From Lachnospiraceae bacterium (GTDB taxonomy: Bacteria > Bacillota > Clostridia > Lachnospirales > Lachnospiraceae), in NCBI GenBank assembly GCA_015057435.1, contig SVEJ01000032.1:1-35694 (forward strand): a stretch of 35,694 bases of DNA. The letters are read 5' to 3'. The first letter of the stretch is position 1, and every line of letters begins with the position of its first letter. Below, piece by piece: positions 12,398-16,522 of this stretch. The notes under the pieces were generated by a model, which was not told where the DNA came from, made no database searches, and worked only from the letters and a program-made list of their open reading frames with translations. A program made the translations under genes and the position numbers.

Positions 12398-13597
12398 TTA
12401 TTTTGATTTCAACAAATATGTTATTGCTTCCTTCAATCCATCCACTGATAAAGTATACATGTGGAACAATTCAGATAACGCATCCTCCGACTCCATCCAG
12501 GTAACCATACTTCTTTGTGCATGGTATCTTGGATTCATCCAGACACACTTCTTGTACTTGCTATTCAATAACTGACACCACTCATATCCGGAAAGTCCGT
12601 CATTTGGTCCTTTATAATTACCATTTTTATCAAACAATTCTTCCGGTGCCATCTGCGCATCACCGACAATAATCACCTTGTAATCCTTGTCATAATGTTT
12701 GAATAGGTAGTCTAAATCCACCCAATCACCTATCTCACATTCTGCAGTCTTATATACCTTGGAATAAATACAATTATGGAAATAGTAGGTCTGTACATCC
12801 TTGAAATGATTCGCCTTGTGAACTGCCTGGAACAACTCGTTACAAAGATTCATAAATGGAATCATGGTTCCACCGCAGTCAAACAATAACAACAATTTCA
12901 CTGTGTTCTTTCTTGGACGGTCAAACTCTAACTGTAAATATCCGCCGTTATTACAAGTCTTATCGATGGTTTTATCAATATCCAATTCCGTCTTTGGTAC
13001 ATCTAATCTAGAAGAATACTGACGTAAACGTCGAAATGCCACCTGATACTGGCGCATGTTAAGAACACGGTCATTACGGAAATCCTCGTATTTTCGTTCG
13101 CTCATAACCTGGAACGCACTTTGCATACCGCCCTGTTCGCCAATACGGATACCACCCACATTACGTCCATGATGTCCAAATGCAGAACCACCTGAAGTAC
13201 CAATCCAGTGATTACCACCGTTATGCTCTGAATTTTGTTCCATTAAACGCTCACGGAACATTCGCTTTACCTCCGCAGCATTCTTTTGCTGGTTAAAGGC
13301 GTACATCTCTGCGTTTTGATGGTCAACCTCCATCTCATCGCCTTTATCTAACCAATCCTTTAATTGCTGTGGAATTGCATCTTCAGACTGAATATTCTTG
13401 AAATACTCCATAAATGCCATATCAAATTTATCATAATCCGACTCAGACTTTACTAAAATCATACGACTAACATAGTAGAACTGACTGAAATTGGAATCCA
13501 CCAGTCCTTTGTCCAAAGCTTCCATAAATGTTAGCCATTCCGTCATAGATATATCTAAGCCTTTTGCTTTTAATGTGTAAAAGAAATCTATAAACAT
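12398..13597 (-). CDS. VWA-domain protein, CoxE-like, partner of the adjacent MoxR ATPase
   Basis: The protein has 399 residues. The N-terminal part (FIDFFYTLKAKGLDISMTEW) matches the 'VWA containing CoxE' family start. A Gly/His-rich linker (about 125-155) precedes a C-terminal von Willebrand A-type domain. The metal-ion site is degenerate: LLLFDCGGTM occupies the DxSxS position, giving D-x-G-x-T. In MoxR/VWA pairs the ATPase and VWA protein work together as chaperones for insertion of metals or for assembly of complexes. No dedicated client enzyme lies beside this pair, so the target is unknown. A CGGAG site precedes the ATG, and the gene follows the ATPase by 47 bases. Confidence 0.82.
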   Translation of the reverse strand: MFIDFFYTLKAKGLDISMTEWLTFMEALDKGLVDSNFSQFYYVSRMILVKSESDYDKFDMAFMEYFKNIQSEDAIPQQLKDWLDKGDEMEVDHQNAEMYAFNQQKNAAEVKRMFRERLMEQNSEHNGGNHWIGTSGGSAFGHHGRNVGGIRIGEQGGMQSAFQVMSERKYEDFRNDRVLNMRQYQVAFRRLRQYSSRLDVPKTELDIDKTIDKTCNNGGYLQLEFDRPRKNTVKLLLLFDCGGTMIPFMNLCNELFQAVHKANHFKDVQTYYFHNCIYSKVYKTAECEIGDWVDLDYLFKHYDKDYKVIIVGDAQMAPEELFDKNGNYKGPNDGLSGYEWCQLLNSKYKKCVWMNPRYHAQRSMVTWMESEDALSELFHMYTLSVDGLKEAITYLLKSK

Positions 13598-13644
13598 AGC
13601 TTCTCCGTTCTATTAAATGATTTATCTTAATTCGTATCCTATTC

Positions 13645-14460
13645 TTAGTATAACTTTGCTTTCTTAAGTGCTTCCAAATCTTCATCCTTCTTTAAAAGAA
13701 CACCGATAAATGGCAATTCCTCTCTTAATTTATCTGTAGAAATGCCGCTCAAGGTTAATGCACGAATCCAGTCAATCAATTCCGATGTACTCGGTTTCTT
13801 ACGGATGTCCTTGATAGAACGAATCCAATAGAATGTATCTAATGCATTTTTTAGAATATTTTCTTCTAAATTCTCGAAATGCGCATTTACAATCTCTGTC
13901 ATCTGTTCTCTGTCCGGAAAAGCAATATAATGGAAAATACATCTTCTAAGGAATGCATCCGGTAATTCCTTCTCTGCATTAGAGGTAATTACCACAATCG
14001 GACGAACCTTCGCCTTTACTGTCTCCTTTGTCTCGTGAATATAGAACTCCATCTTGTCAAGCTCCCATAACAAGTCATTCGGAAATTCCAGGTCTGCTTT
14101 ATCAATCTCATCAATAAGTAGAATCACCTGTTCATCGGACTTAAATGCTTCACCAAGCTTTCCAAGCTTGATATAATGTGCAATATCATCTACTCCCTCT
14201 TCACCAAATTGAGAATCATAAAGTCTCTGAATGGTATCGTACACATACAAACCATCCTGTGCCTTTGTAGTAGATTTGATATTCCAGATAAATAACTCCT
14301 TATCCATAGACTGGCTAATAGCTTCTGCAAGCATCGTTTTACCGGTTCCCGGTTCTCCTTTAATCAATAATGGTTTCTGTAATGCAATTGCTACGTCAAC
14401 TGCTGCCATCAACTCTTCACTTGCTACATAATCCTTGCTTCCTGTAAATTTTGCTTCCAT
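13645..14460 (-). CDS. MoxR-type AAA+ ATPase
   Basis: The protein has 271 residues. Walker A is GEPGTGKT (35-42), Walker B is VILLIDEIDKAD, sensor 1 is ITSNAEKELPDAF, and an RRCIFHYIAFPD arginine segment follows, as in the MoxR group. The C-terminal helical lid contains TSELIDWIRAL, also typical. It is compact, with no extra domains. It is paired with the VWA/CoxE-like gene directly downstream, the standard MoxR arrangement. An AAGGAG site lies seven bases before the ATG. The gene starts 42 bases after the radical SAM gene on the same strand. A functional link to that locus is possible but not shown. Confidence 0.9.
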   Translation of the reverse strand: MEAKFTGSKDYVASEELMAAVDVAIALQKPLLIKGEPGTGKTMLAEAISQSMDKELFIWNIKSTTKAQDGLYVYDTIQRLYDSQFGEEGVDDIAHYIKLGKLGEAFKSDEQVILLIDEIDKADLEFPNDLLWELDKMEFYIHETKETVKAKVRPIVVITSNAEKELPDAFLRRCIFHYIAFPDREQMTEIVNAHFENLEENILKNALDTFYWIRSIKDIRKKPSTSELIDWIRALTLSGISTDKLREELPFIGVLLKKDEDLEALKKAKLY

Positions 14461-14502: not shown

Positions 14503-15498
14503 TTAATAACTCGTTGAAAAAGGACAATTAATATCCTGACCTATTAGTTTTCCTGTTACCGCATATGTTAAACATTTTGCACCACCTTTACAATGATTTA
14601 TGTATGTGCATTTCTCACATTCCGGTGCAAGATTTTCTGCATTTAACATATGTATTGTCTCATTATTATTTATAATCGAATCAATATGTGCCACTGTTAA
14701 ATCGCCCAATGGTAATGGCAATCTTCTACATGGTAAAAGTGTTCCGTCCGCTAATATTGTCAACAAAGATTTACCTGCTGAACACCGGTAACAATTCTCT
14801 TCACAACCACATACAAATTGTAAGGCTCTATTTGTATGAATTCTCATTTTAATAAACGGATTTCTCTTAGCTTTTCTTGATTCTCTTCCAAGAATTTTAA
14901 GATATTGCATATATTCATCAGTTGATACAATATCGAGTGTGTTATTTCCAATCGGAATTAATCTATCCGTCCAGAATCTGTCTACTCCATTTTTTCGACA
15001 TATCTTTATAACGTCTTTTAACTCTTTGAAGTTATTCTTTGTACATGTAAATGATACCATTGTTTGTATATGAACTTGCTTTAATAATCGGATTGCGGAT
15101 AGCGTCTTGTCAAAATTTCCTTCTCCTCGTATCCCGTCATGCGTTTCCTTTATACCATCAATACTTACTTGTACAAATCGTAATTCATCATATTGAAGTA
15201 ATTTTTTTACAATTTCCTCATCAATAAGCGTTCCGTTAGTCAAAATCCCAAAAGTTATATGGTACTTCTTACACAAATCTAACAAATCAAAGAAATGGTT
15301 GGATAACAATGGTTCTCCACCGGTAAAATTAATATGTCCGATATAATTATGCGCATTGATATATTCTAATATCTTATAAAAAATATCTGTTAATTCTTCT
15401 TTATTAAGATCTTTATTATAATCTTCCTGATAACAATGTTGGCATCTCAAATTGCATCTATGCGTTATATGCCACTGAAATACAAATTTCTGTCTCAT
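14503..15498 (-). CDS. Radical SAM/SPASM enzyme, candidate peptide or protein-tail maturase
   Basis: The protein has 331 residues from the ATG at 15496-15498. The longer frame to 15555 would overlap the preceding gene, whereas AAAGGA sits eight bases before this ATG. The radical SAM cluster is C15-x3-C19-x2-C22 (HRCNLRCQHC), followed by a GGEPL motif. The C-terminal SPASM region has C-x12-G-x4-C (SAGK...GTLLPC), CEKC, then C-x5-C and a final NCPF cysteine, enough for auxiliary [4Fe-4S] clusters. An extra CGCEENCYRC cluster precedes it. SPASM enzymes include sactipeptide and ranthipeptide maturases that form thioether crosslinks from Cys. The next gene upstream, 32 bases away, encodes a membrane protein with a Cys-Ser-Ser repeat tail, a likely substrate. 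Alternatives include an enzyme acting on an unlinked peptide. Confidence 0.85.
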   Translation of the reverse strand: MRQKFVFQWHITHRCNLRCQHCYQEDYNKDLNKEELTDIFYKILEYINAHNYIGHINFTGGEPLLSNHFFDLLDLCKKYHITFGILTNGTLIDEEIVKKLLQYDELRFVQVSIDGIKETHDGIRGEGNFDKTLSAIRLLKQVHIQTMVSFTCTKNNFKELKDVIKICRKNGVDRFWTDRLIPIGNNTLDIVSTDEYMQYLKILGRESRKAKRNPFIKMRIHTNRALQFVCGCEENCYRCSAGKSLLTILADGTLLPCRRLPLPLGDLTVAHIDSIINNNETIHMLNAENLAPECEKCTYINHCKGGAKCLTYAVTGKLIGQDINCPFSTSY

Positions 15499-15530
15499 TA
15501 TTAGTTTCCTTTGTATAATTAGTCCGGTCT

Positions 15531-16472
15531 TTAATCGGCTCCACCGCCGCCACAACCACTACAAGAACTACAACTACTACAAGAACTGCAGGATGTACAG
15601 CCAAAACCTGAAGAGTAATCGTTATATCCATTCGAGGTGAAGCGGGCAACCCAAATAATGATTAATATAATAATGATTATACTAATGATTTTTAAAAATT
15701 TTACCCAAATAGAATCGTCTGAATTACCATGTTCATCCAGAATGCTGTTAAGACGATTTTGAAGAGCGGATACGTCATTACTTGATACATATTCCAATCC
15801 GGTAAAAGCACGATTATTCATCATTGTAATAACGTTAACCAGACCGGTGGAACCTTTTGTATTGTTTAATACAAGCGCTTCACCATTTTTATACGATTCC
15901 CAATCATTTGATTTCGTAACATTTCTTAGCTCAATAGATGTGGAAGTCGGCGGAACAATCATAATTGAAATTTTATCTATTTCCTTTTCAAATTCAGTTC
16001 CAATAAACCGATAAGAAAAAACTGCTAACTGCTTGTCTGTCGTTTTTATTACTTTTTTTAGCGTATAGTTGATTGTATATTCCACAGTTTCATTTTTTGC
16101 ATTATAATACCAAGACATACGAACGTTATCCATATTATCTTCAGTACTGAACGTATAATTATTACGTTCATCCGGATTGGATGTTTTAACACAATTGTTC
16201 GCATTAATTGTAGCATTAATAAACTCAATATTATTAAATTTTTCCGCTTTGCTTAAACCTTTGGTATGAATATCTTTATAAAATCTGCTATATTCTCCGG
16301 AATATGATACAGACCACTTTTCTGTGACGTATGCATCACCATCAGTTTCCAACGACACAAAGAAATAGACATTATCAATATTATATTTCTTAGCTTCTGC
16401 ATTTATTGTAAAACAAAGACTTCCGCAACAAATCATCAAAATAGTCCAGCATAATAGTATACTTTTTTTCAA
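15531..16472 (-). CDS. DUF2207-like membrane protein with six-Cys repeat tail
   Basis: The protein has 313 residues. It has a signal peptide (about 1-27, cleavage near AEA-K) and an extracellular domain with the DUF2207-like DGDAYVTEKWSVSYSGEYS and an IMIVPP strand. A strong membrane helix (about 258-277) and a 35-residue tail follow. The tail has Cys at 292, 295, 298, 301, 304 and 307, separated by Ser-Ser, Thr-Ser or Ser-Gly, then GGGGAD. By the signal-then-helix topology the tail is cytoplasmic. Ordinary DUF2207 proteins end in Gly/Ser-rich tails, so the cysteines are unusual. GGAGG at 16481-16485 fixes the TTG start at 16470-16472 rather than the TTG at 16487, which overlaps the site. The radical SAM/SPASM gene follows 32 bases later. 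Confidence 0.83.
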   Translation of the reverse strand: MKKSILLCWTILMICCGSLCFTINAEAKKYNIDNVYFFVSLETDGDAYVTEKWSVSYSGEYSRFYKDIHTKGLSKAEKFNNIEFINATINANNCVKTSNPDERNNYTFSTEDNMDNVRMSWYYNAKNETVEYTINYTLKKVIKTTDKQLAVFSYRFIGTEFEKEIDKISIMIVPPTSTSIELRNVTKSNDWESYKNGEALVLNNTKGSTGLVNVITMMNNRAFTGLEYVSSNDVSALQNRLNSILDEHGNSDDSIWVKFLKIISIIIIILIIIWVARFTSNGYNDYSSGFGCTSCSSCSSCSSCSGCGGGGAD

Positions 16473-16522
16473 AATATTATCCTCCAAATGTATTGCTTAT
16501 GGATTGTTACAAGAAAACCATA

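Follow-up and report, generated by a model that had tools for sequence, protein, structure and literature searches.

A radical SAM/SPASM enzyme paired with the cysteine-repeat tail of a DUF2207 membrane protein in a Lachnospiraceae genome

Contig SVEJ01000032.1 of a Lachnospiraceae bacterium (GenBank assembly GCA_015057435.1), whose 35,694 nucleotides (nt) are termed here the window, carries two adjacent genes, one for a DUF2207 membrane protein that ends in a repeat of cysteines and the other for an enzyme of the radical SAM/SPASM class. The pairing of this enzyme with this kind of tail is real, recurrent and specific, and the tail tracks the enzyme rather than the scaffold that bears it.

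The gene pair and its two products

The features of the pair are collected in Table 1. Two descriptions given in a first-pass annotation, made from the letters of the window alone, are exact: a 32-base gap separates the genes (15499-15530), and six cysteines occupy every third position from 292 to 307 (292, 295, 298, 301, 304 and 307), followed by GGGGAD and the stop codon.

Table 1. Features of the gene pair in the window
Feature	Position	Strand	Basis or remark
DUF2207 membrane protein, 313 residues, TTG start	15531..16472	-	open reading frame and PF09972
Shine-Dalgarno GGAGG of the DUF2207 gene	16481-16485	-	8 nt 5' of TTG
Radical SAM/SPASM enzyme, 331 residues, ATG start	14503..15498	-	no N-terminal extension preceding the core
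Intergenic gap, DUF2207 gene to enzyme gene	15499..15530	-	32 nt
Predicted signal peptide, about residues 1-27 (...NAEA/K)	16392..16472	-	sequence by eye, AlphaFold helix 2-17, relatives
Predicted single transmembrane helix, residues 254-278	15639..15713	-	AlphaFold model and hydrophobic sequence
Tail with Cys repeat C292..C307 followed by GGGGAD313, proposed as enzyme target	15534..15599	-	
C15xxxC19xxC22 cluster motif of the enzyme	15433..15456	-	35/35 rows
SPASM region C239..C325, seven Cys and invariant R258 R259	14524..14784	-	34-35 of 35 rows

The membrane protein matches DUF2207 (PF09972) at 43.5 bits, above the curated cut-off of 24.4; it has no match in a search of the NCBIfam profiles and so is without a TIGR04222 domain. 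Its AlphaFold model (mean predicted local distance difference test score, pLDDT, of 78) consists of a helix at residues 2-17, a beta domain at 29-219, a polar helix at 231-249, a strongly hydrophobic helix at 254-278 and a disordered stretch at 279-306. A modelled strand at residues 309-312 follows the disorder (window 15534-15554; block of residues 311-313, pLDDT 86). The signal peptide and topology were read from the sequence and from this model, without a dedicated prediction program, and A-x-A-like cleavage sites occur at the matching place in aligned relatives. A signal peptide followed by one membrane helix would leave the tail in the cytoplasm, as the first-pass annotation had proposed; the model is consistent with this placing, which also fits the positive-inside rule of membrane topology, inasmuch as a long relative (L100) has KRKVTK directly after its membrane helix.

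The tail is not a chance repeat, because its serine codons are mixed (TCC, AGT and TCT in the window) and because the same kind of Cys tail recurs in aligned relatives with only 26-35% whole-protein identity. In an alignment of eleven Cys-tailed DUF2207 proteins, pairwise identity averages 83% over the final 23 columns, versus 28% for the rest of the protein.

The enzyme matches both Radical_SAM (PF04055, 92.5 bits) and SPASM (PF13186, 31.9 bits) above their cut-offs, and its structure model (pLDDT 91.9) has the radical SAM fold. The radical SAM motif cysteines (C15, C19 and C22) are kept in all 35 relatives aligned, and the SPASM cysteines (C239, C257, C294, C297, C303, C309 and C325) in 34-35 of them; five residues precede C309, versus the three that are usual at that point of the SPASM motif.

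Recurrence of the pairing across genomes and scaffolds

Two censuses of PF09972 matches, covering the family and the phylum, together comprise 126 proteins, among which a radical SAM gene neighbours six of the six Cys-tailed members versus none of the 120 others (Fisher's test, 2e-10, for rows that are related to one another and that include up to 10 unreadable or doubtful tails). Cys-tailed relatives commonly standing without such a neighbour, which the first-pass annotation had named as speaking against its proposal, are not found in either census. Here 'Cys-tailed' means, by eye, that Cys lies within a Gly/Ser/Ala tail, a lone Cys upstream of a Gly tail being excluded; neighbours were sought among all open reading frames (ORFs) of at least 80 residues (hmmsearch, E 1e-5) in fetched stretches of 3.3-9.1 kb (family) or 3.3-10 kb (phylum), which are shorter at contig ends, so that neighbours past a contig end are missed.

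The family census yielded 47 matches in 46 of 397 genomes (45 fetched as regions, plus the window and locus L012). Its Cys-tailed members are those of the window and of G290, G178, G148 (two Cys only, in one CSSC pair), G087:C4 and G213, all beside a radical SAM gene; the last two fall below the PF09972 cut-off and are paired with a second enzyme family. None of the remaining 41 has a radical SAM neighbour within its fetched stretch, and tails in this census are mostly Gly/Ser-rich without Cys, which bears out what had been said of the protein's relatives. The phylum census yielded 81 matches in 398 genomes, two of them already counted; the 79 examined include neither a protein read as Cys-tailed nor, under the same test, one beside a radical SAM gene. 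Unreadable or doubtful tails, counted as not Cys-tailed, number four of the 47 (L052, L069, L085 and L094) and up to six of the 79 (L233, L238, L262, L284, L251 and L265).

A search for the enzyme itself in 295 genomes of the order (E 1e-50) finds four besides that of the window, all located after a DUF2207 protein; the tails of these four partners range from GGGCSSCGGGGSW to GCSSCGGGCSSCGGGCSSCGGGGSW. In G290, which belongs to another genus, a 514-residue DUF2207 protein ends SSCSSCSSCSSCSSCGGGGAD, and its enzyme, 42% identical to that of the window, starts 2 nt later. The same genome has an ACGX radical SAM enzyme that scores above its family's cut-off (583 bits; L012:5208-6269); it was set aside as a partner, being 3.8 kb away from the pair in G290 and sharing 27% identity with the window enzyme. 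Among 26 genomes of the window's own genus, a single-protein search, which misses distant Cys-tailed relatives, finds a clear match to the DUF2207 protein only in the window's own genome; a weak match with internal stops (L003) was not used.

For a wider survey, a collection of 84,980 species was scanned with a six-row enzyme alignment, and the analysis continued with the best 80 of 581 relatives. Under a strict rule (a tail of small residues, with four or more Cys among the final 45 positions), a Cys-tailed ORF is directly adjacent at 24 of the 30 loci that fall into the clade of the enzyme versus 2 of the 50 other loci among these best 80; the nearest gaps do not exceed 78 nt in the clade loci, and are 129 and 135 nt in the two non-clade loci. 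The tail scan covered all 80 loci, unlike the quick tree, whose 55 rows with hand-set labels are 48 of the best 80 loci plus 7 further rows, 32 low-scoring loci being omitted. The clade comprises 36 rows in this tree (Shimodaira-Hasegawa-like approximate likelihood ratio test, SH-aLRT, 98), 31 of which have a Cys-tailed neighbour, counting the two-Cys tail of L110. Five lack one (L114, L115, L118, L127 and L141). For L114 and L115, a Cys-tailed TPM protein lies on another contig of the same genome. For L118, a metagenome-assembled genome (MAG) labelled as archaeal, a DUF2207 protein ending GGGCSGGSSCGGGCGGGCGGGGAD (...CGGGCGGGGAD) lies near a contig end (L310:205-2097), on a contig other than that of the enzyme; its tail end closely resembles that of the window protein. 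In the L127 and L141 genomes no Cys-tailed protein was found among TIGR04222, PF09972 and TPM proteins, other scaffolds not having been sought. Among these last three genomes, PF09972 occurs only in L118 (Cys-tailed) and TPM only in L127 (with a Gly/Ser tail and no Cys), and TIGR04222 was found neither in them nor in the genomes of L132, L129 and L170. The pairing is found in MAGs named Lachnospiraceae, Ruminococcus, Bacilli, Thiotrichaceae, Nitrosomonadales and Armatimonadetes. The partner gene mostly comes first; in L100-L104 and L125 the enzyme gene leads instead, and in L121 and L122 the two genes are convergent.

By profile, the partners include (i) DUF2207 proteins (the window, L099, L105, L107, L112, L116 and L123), (ii) TPM-domain proteins, the tails of which end GGSSSF or similar (L106, L108, L110, L111 and L113), (iii) TIGR04222 proteins with Cys/Gly tails (L109, L121, L122 and L126), and (iv) a zinc-ribbon protein (L124). 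The enzymes of G290 and L107, whose DUF2207 partners have CSS tails, cluster with the enzymes of TPM partners (SH-aLRT 99). In other words, related enzymes accompany the same CSS motif on two different scaffolds, and no other observation speaks as strongly for the tail being the target.

A second enzyme-tail system is represented by G087:C4 and G213, the enzymes of which belong to another radical SAM/SPASM family, one with an N-terminal extension; these score 45 and 44 bits against a two-row profile of the first family, versus at least 292 bits for members of the clade. A search finds the second family in 23 of 299 genomes of the bacterial family, and a neighbour with a CA-repeat tail is present in all 20 loci supplied (L290-L309, e.g., L292:240-2859; the two founders are included and three further loci were unread). 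These partners end ...CACACACAGGGRAGC(S/T)xKDFY or in CACACASSGRAGC variants. Their kinship to DUF2207 consists of two weak matches below the cut-off, those of G087:C4 and G213; a Pfam search (E 0.01) does not find DUF2207 in the partners of L292, L294 and L308, and at the two founding loci neither enzyme nor partner attains any NCBIfam cut-off.

As for other neighbours, the enzyme gene of the window is immediately followed (12398-14460) by genes for a MoxR-like AAA ATPase and for a protein with weak likeness to VWA/CoxE, and in L113 a MoxR-like ORF, called by eye, likewise follows the enzyme. LemA is encoded upstream of DUF2207 in L066, L116, L117 and L123 (confirmed with Pfam for L066 and L117).

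Proposed maturation of the tail and alternative explanations

The first-pass annotation had coupled the SPASM enzyme with a full-size membrane protein through its Cys tail and had suggested that it crosslinks this tail; the assignment is strongly supported by the censuses (6/6 versus 0/120), and the modification, including a crosslink, is inferred. Modification of the tail by the enzyme is likely, and it appears quite probable that the two genes constitute one maturation system, in which a membrane-anchored protein presents its Cys tail in the cytoplasm and the enzyme acts on it there. Also in favour are the conservation of the tail relative to the rest of the protein, the Cys-tailed proteins encoded elsewhere in the genomes of L114, L115 and L118, the second enzyme-tail system, and the likeness of the enzyme to maturases of peptide systems. 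The DUF2207 protein would be exported as far as its single membrane helix, with the disordered Cys/Ser/Gly tail remaining in the cytoplasm, where the SPASM enzyme would recognise the tail itself; such direct recognition is suggested by the enzyme being short and having no extra leader-binding domain. SAM radical chemistry would then alter the tail cysteines, the most likely product being thioether bonds that join Cys sulfur to the alpha-carbon of a neighbouring Gly or Ser. Related tails include all-Gly spacers (CGGCGG), which leave no beta- or gamma-carbon between the cysteines as acceptor and which, if the chemistry is shared, point to the alpha-carbon. Spacers of Gly and Ser only give a sharp prediction as to which carbon is attacked, and the proposal is directly testable, since the pair is compact, with just two genes, and the target has 22 residues. 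The outcome would be a constrained, permanently membrane-anchored tail resembling a ribosomally synthesized and post-translationally modified peptide (RiPP), with perhaps a role in metal or redox sensing or binding within a stress-related membrane complex. A Streptococcus mutans DUF2207 mutant is reported to grow more poorly when the pH is low or methyl viologen is present, and to have lower peroxide survival (PMC10457818); a link between the tail system and stress is possible.

There is one exception to the adjacency, which shows that a Cys-tailed DUF2207 protein need not adjoin its enzyme: the expectation that a SPASM gene always lies beside such a protein holds for all six cases in the censuses but not for L118, where the enzyme is on another contig.

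A rather unlikely alternative, though the likeliest of the three considered, is that the enzyme alters single tail cysteines, for example by converting Cys to formylglycine or by forming thio-heterocycles, and makes no crosslinks. Residue D277 of the anaerobic sulfatase maturase anSMEcpe, which we take to be the catalytic base and which lies beside an auxiliary-cluster Cys, aligns with R258 of the window enzyme (located by manual counting along the aligned sequences), an Arg in 35/35 relatives; conversion to formylglycine of the kind carried out by that enzyme is disfavoured because its catalytic Asp is thus replaced by an invariant Arg, and the sulfatase motif CxPxR is also absent from the tail.

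It is less likely still that the tail is an unmodified metal-binding, cluster-binding or redox appendage, which the enzyme merely uses (for instance as a donor of Fe-S or electrons that is anchored in the membrane) or beside which it acts on something else. Cys-rich tails of transmembrane peptides occur beside feoB-like genes in L006, L008 and L010, with no SPASM enzyme seen by eye within about 3 kb, and indicate that Cys tails can serve other jobs; these small peptides were themselves rejected, by eye, as relatives of the tail. Moreover, a zinc-ribbon-like stretch with a CxxC pair precedes the tail in the second-system partners L292 and L096 (by eye). The appendage explanation is countered by the tail motif following the enzyme clade across scaffolds, by a second enzyme family being paired with a similar tail design, and by the L105 tail matching TIGR04117, a family of CXXX radical SAM targets, at E 4.7e-4, which is below that profile's cut-off. 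Coincidence of neighbourhood or operon drift without functional link is very improbable and largely refuted already: the pair could have come into the window's genome as a block, since the single-protein search of 26 genomes of the genus gives a clear match to its DUF2207 protein only there, but the pairing recurs across MAG lineages with varied gene order and is absent from the 120 census relatives without a Cys tail.

More generally, maturation of the tail by its paired enzyme may exemplify a class whose existence appears reasonably likely: ribosomally made, radical-modified and membrane-tethered tails, in which a Cys/Gly/Ser repeat forms the cytoplasmic C-terminus of a DUF2207, TPM, TIGR04222 or zinc-ribbon scaffold, in bacteria as well as in one archaeal MAG or more, each moving with a dedicated radical SAM/SPASM enzyme, with at least two enzyme families having arrived at this separately, and with the modification staying in the cell rather than on a secreted natural product. 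If this is true, radical SAM peptide chemistry extends from small free peptides to the tails of full-size membrane proteins, reaches into gut, rumen and environmental microbes, and offers a handle on the role of the widespread DUF2207, TPM and TIGR04222 tails.

Relation to known systems

The two profiles that the window enzyme matches best carry the names of peptide systems, both of which have Cys-rich targets. The best score (168.1 bits, below the curated cut-off of 350) is that for SbtM, the thio(seleno)oxazole modification maturase (TIGR04082), of which the enzyme covers positions 190-496 of 516, the N-terminal part being missing. The ACGX profile (TIGR04340) is covered nearly end to end and the window enzyme shares an FQWHIT start with the ACGX enzyme of G290; however, its score of 153.7 bits is far below the curated cut-off of 400, and the true ACGX enzyme is a separate one in the G290 genome. 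The ACGX target, as the family name implies, is a small Cys-repeat peptide and not a membrane protein. Against the PapB-type ranthipeptide maturase profile (NF047865) the enzyme scores 108.4 bits, short of the cut-off of 340.

SkfB and CteB, which are thioether enzymes, head the list of solved sequences resembling the enzyme, and PDB titles partly name thioether chemistry. SkfB, CteB and SuiB, the chemistry of the last not being on Cys, act on short cytosolic peptides and have an N-terminal leader-binding domain; the window enzyme differs in having no N-terminal extension and in having a membrane protein as its partner. Sactipeptide and ranthipeptide systems likewise have a small free precursor, whereas here the partner is a 313-residue protein with a predicted signal peptide and transmembrane helix. 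Radical SAM enzymes acting on full-size proteins are known, namely anaerobic sulfatase maturase, from which the window enzyme differs in the catalytic residue and target motif discussed above, and Mmp10.

The first-pass annotation had spoken of what would be a new class of target. This is tempered by these full-protein enzymes and by one precedent from another enzyme class. No literature joining DUF2207 with radical SAM enzymes, or radical SAM enzymes with the TPM domain, was found in a search that lay outside preprints and most subscription papers. The sole precedent found for such a target is a proposal, made in 2025, that Cys-tailed TIGR04222 membrane proteins adjoining MNIO enzymes are the substrates of these enzymes, their tails being predicted to be periplasmic (PMC12452194). 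In the main text of that paper the terms 'DUF2207' and 'TPM' are absent and 'radical SAM' occurs twice. The TIGR04222 protein of L109 (1244-2152) has in addition a match to DUF2207_C (PF20990; E 2e-7, 31.2 bits against a cut-off of 33). This match suggests that the DUF2207 and TIGR04222 scaffolds may be homologous, in which case the published periplasmic placing of TIGR04222 tails may merit a recheck. The two systems share the proposal that an integral membrane protein is modified on its low-complexity Cys tail and, for the partners in L109, L121, L122 and L126, the scaffold family as well; they differ in enzyme class and in the predicted location of the tail, which is periplasmic in the MNIO system and cytoplasmic in the system proposed here.
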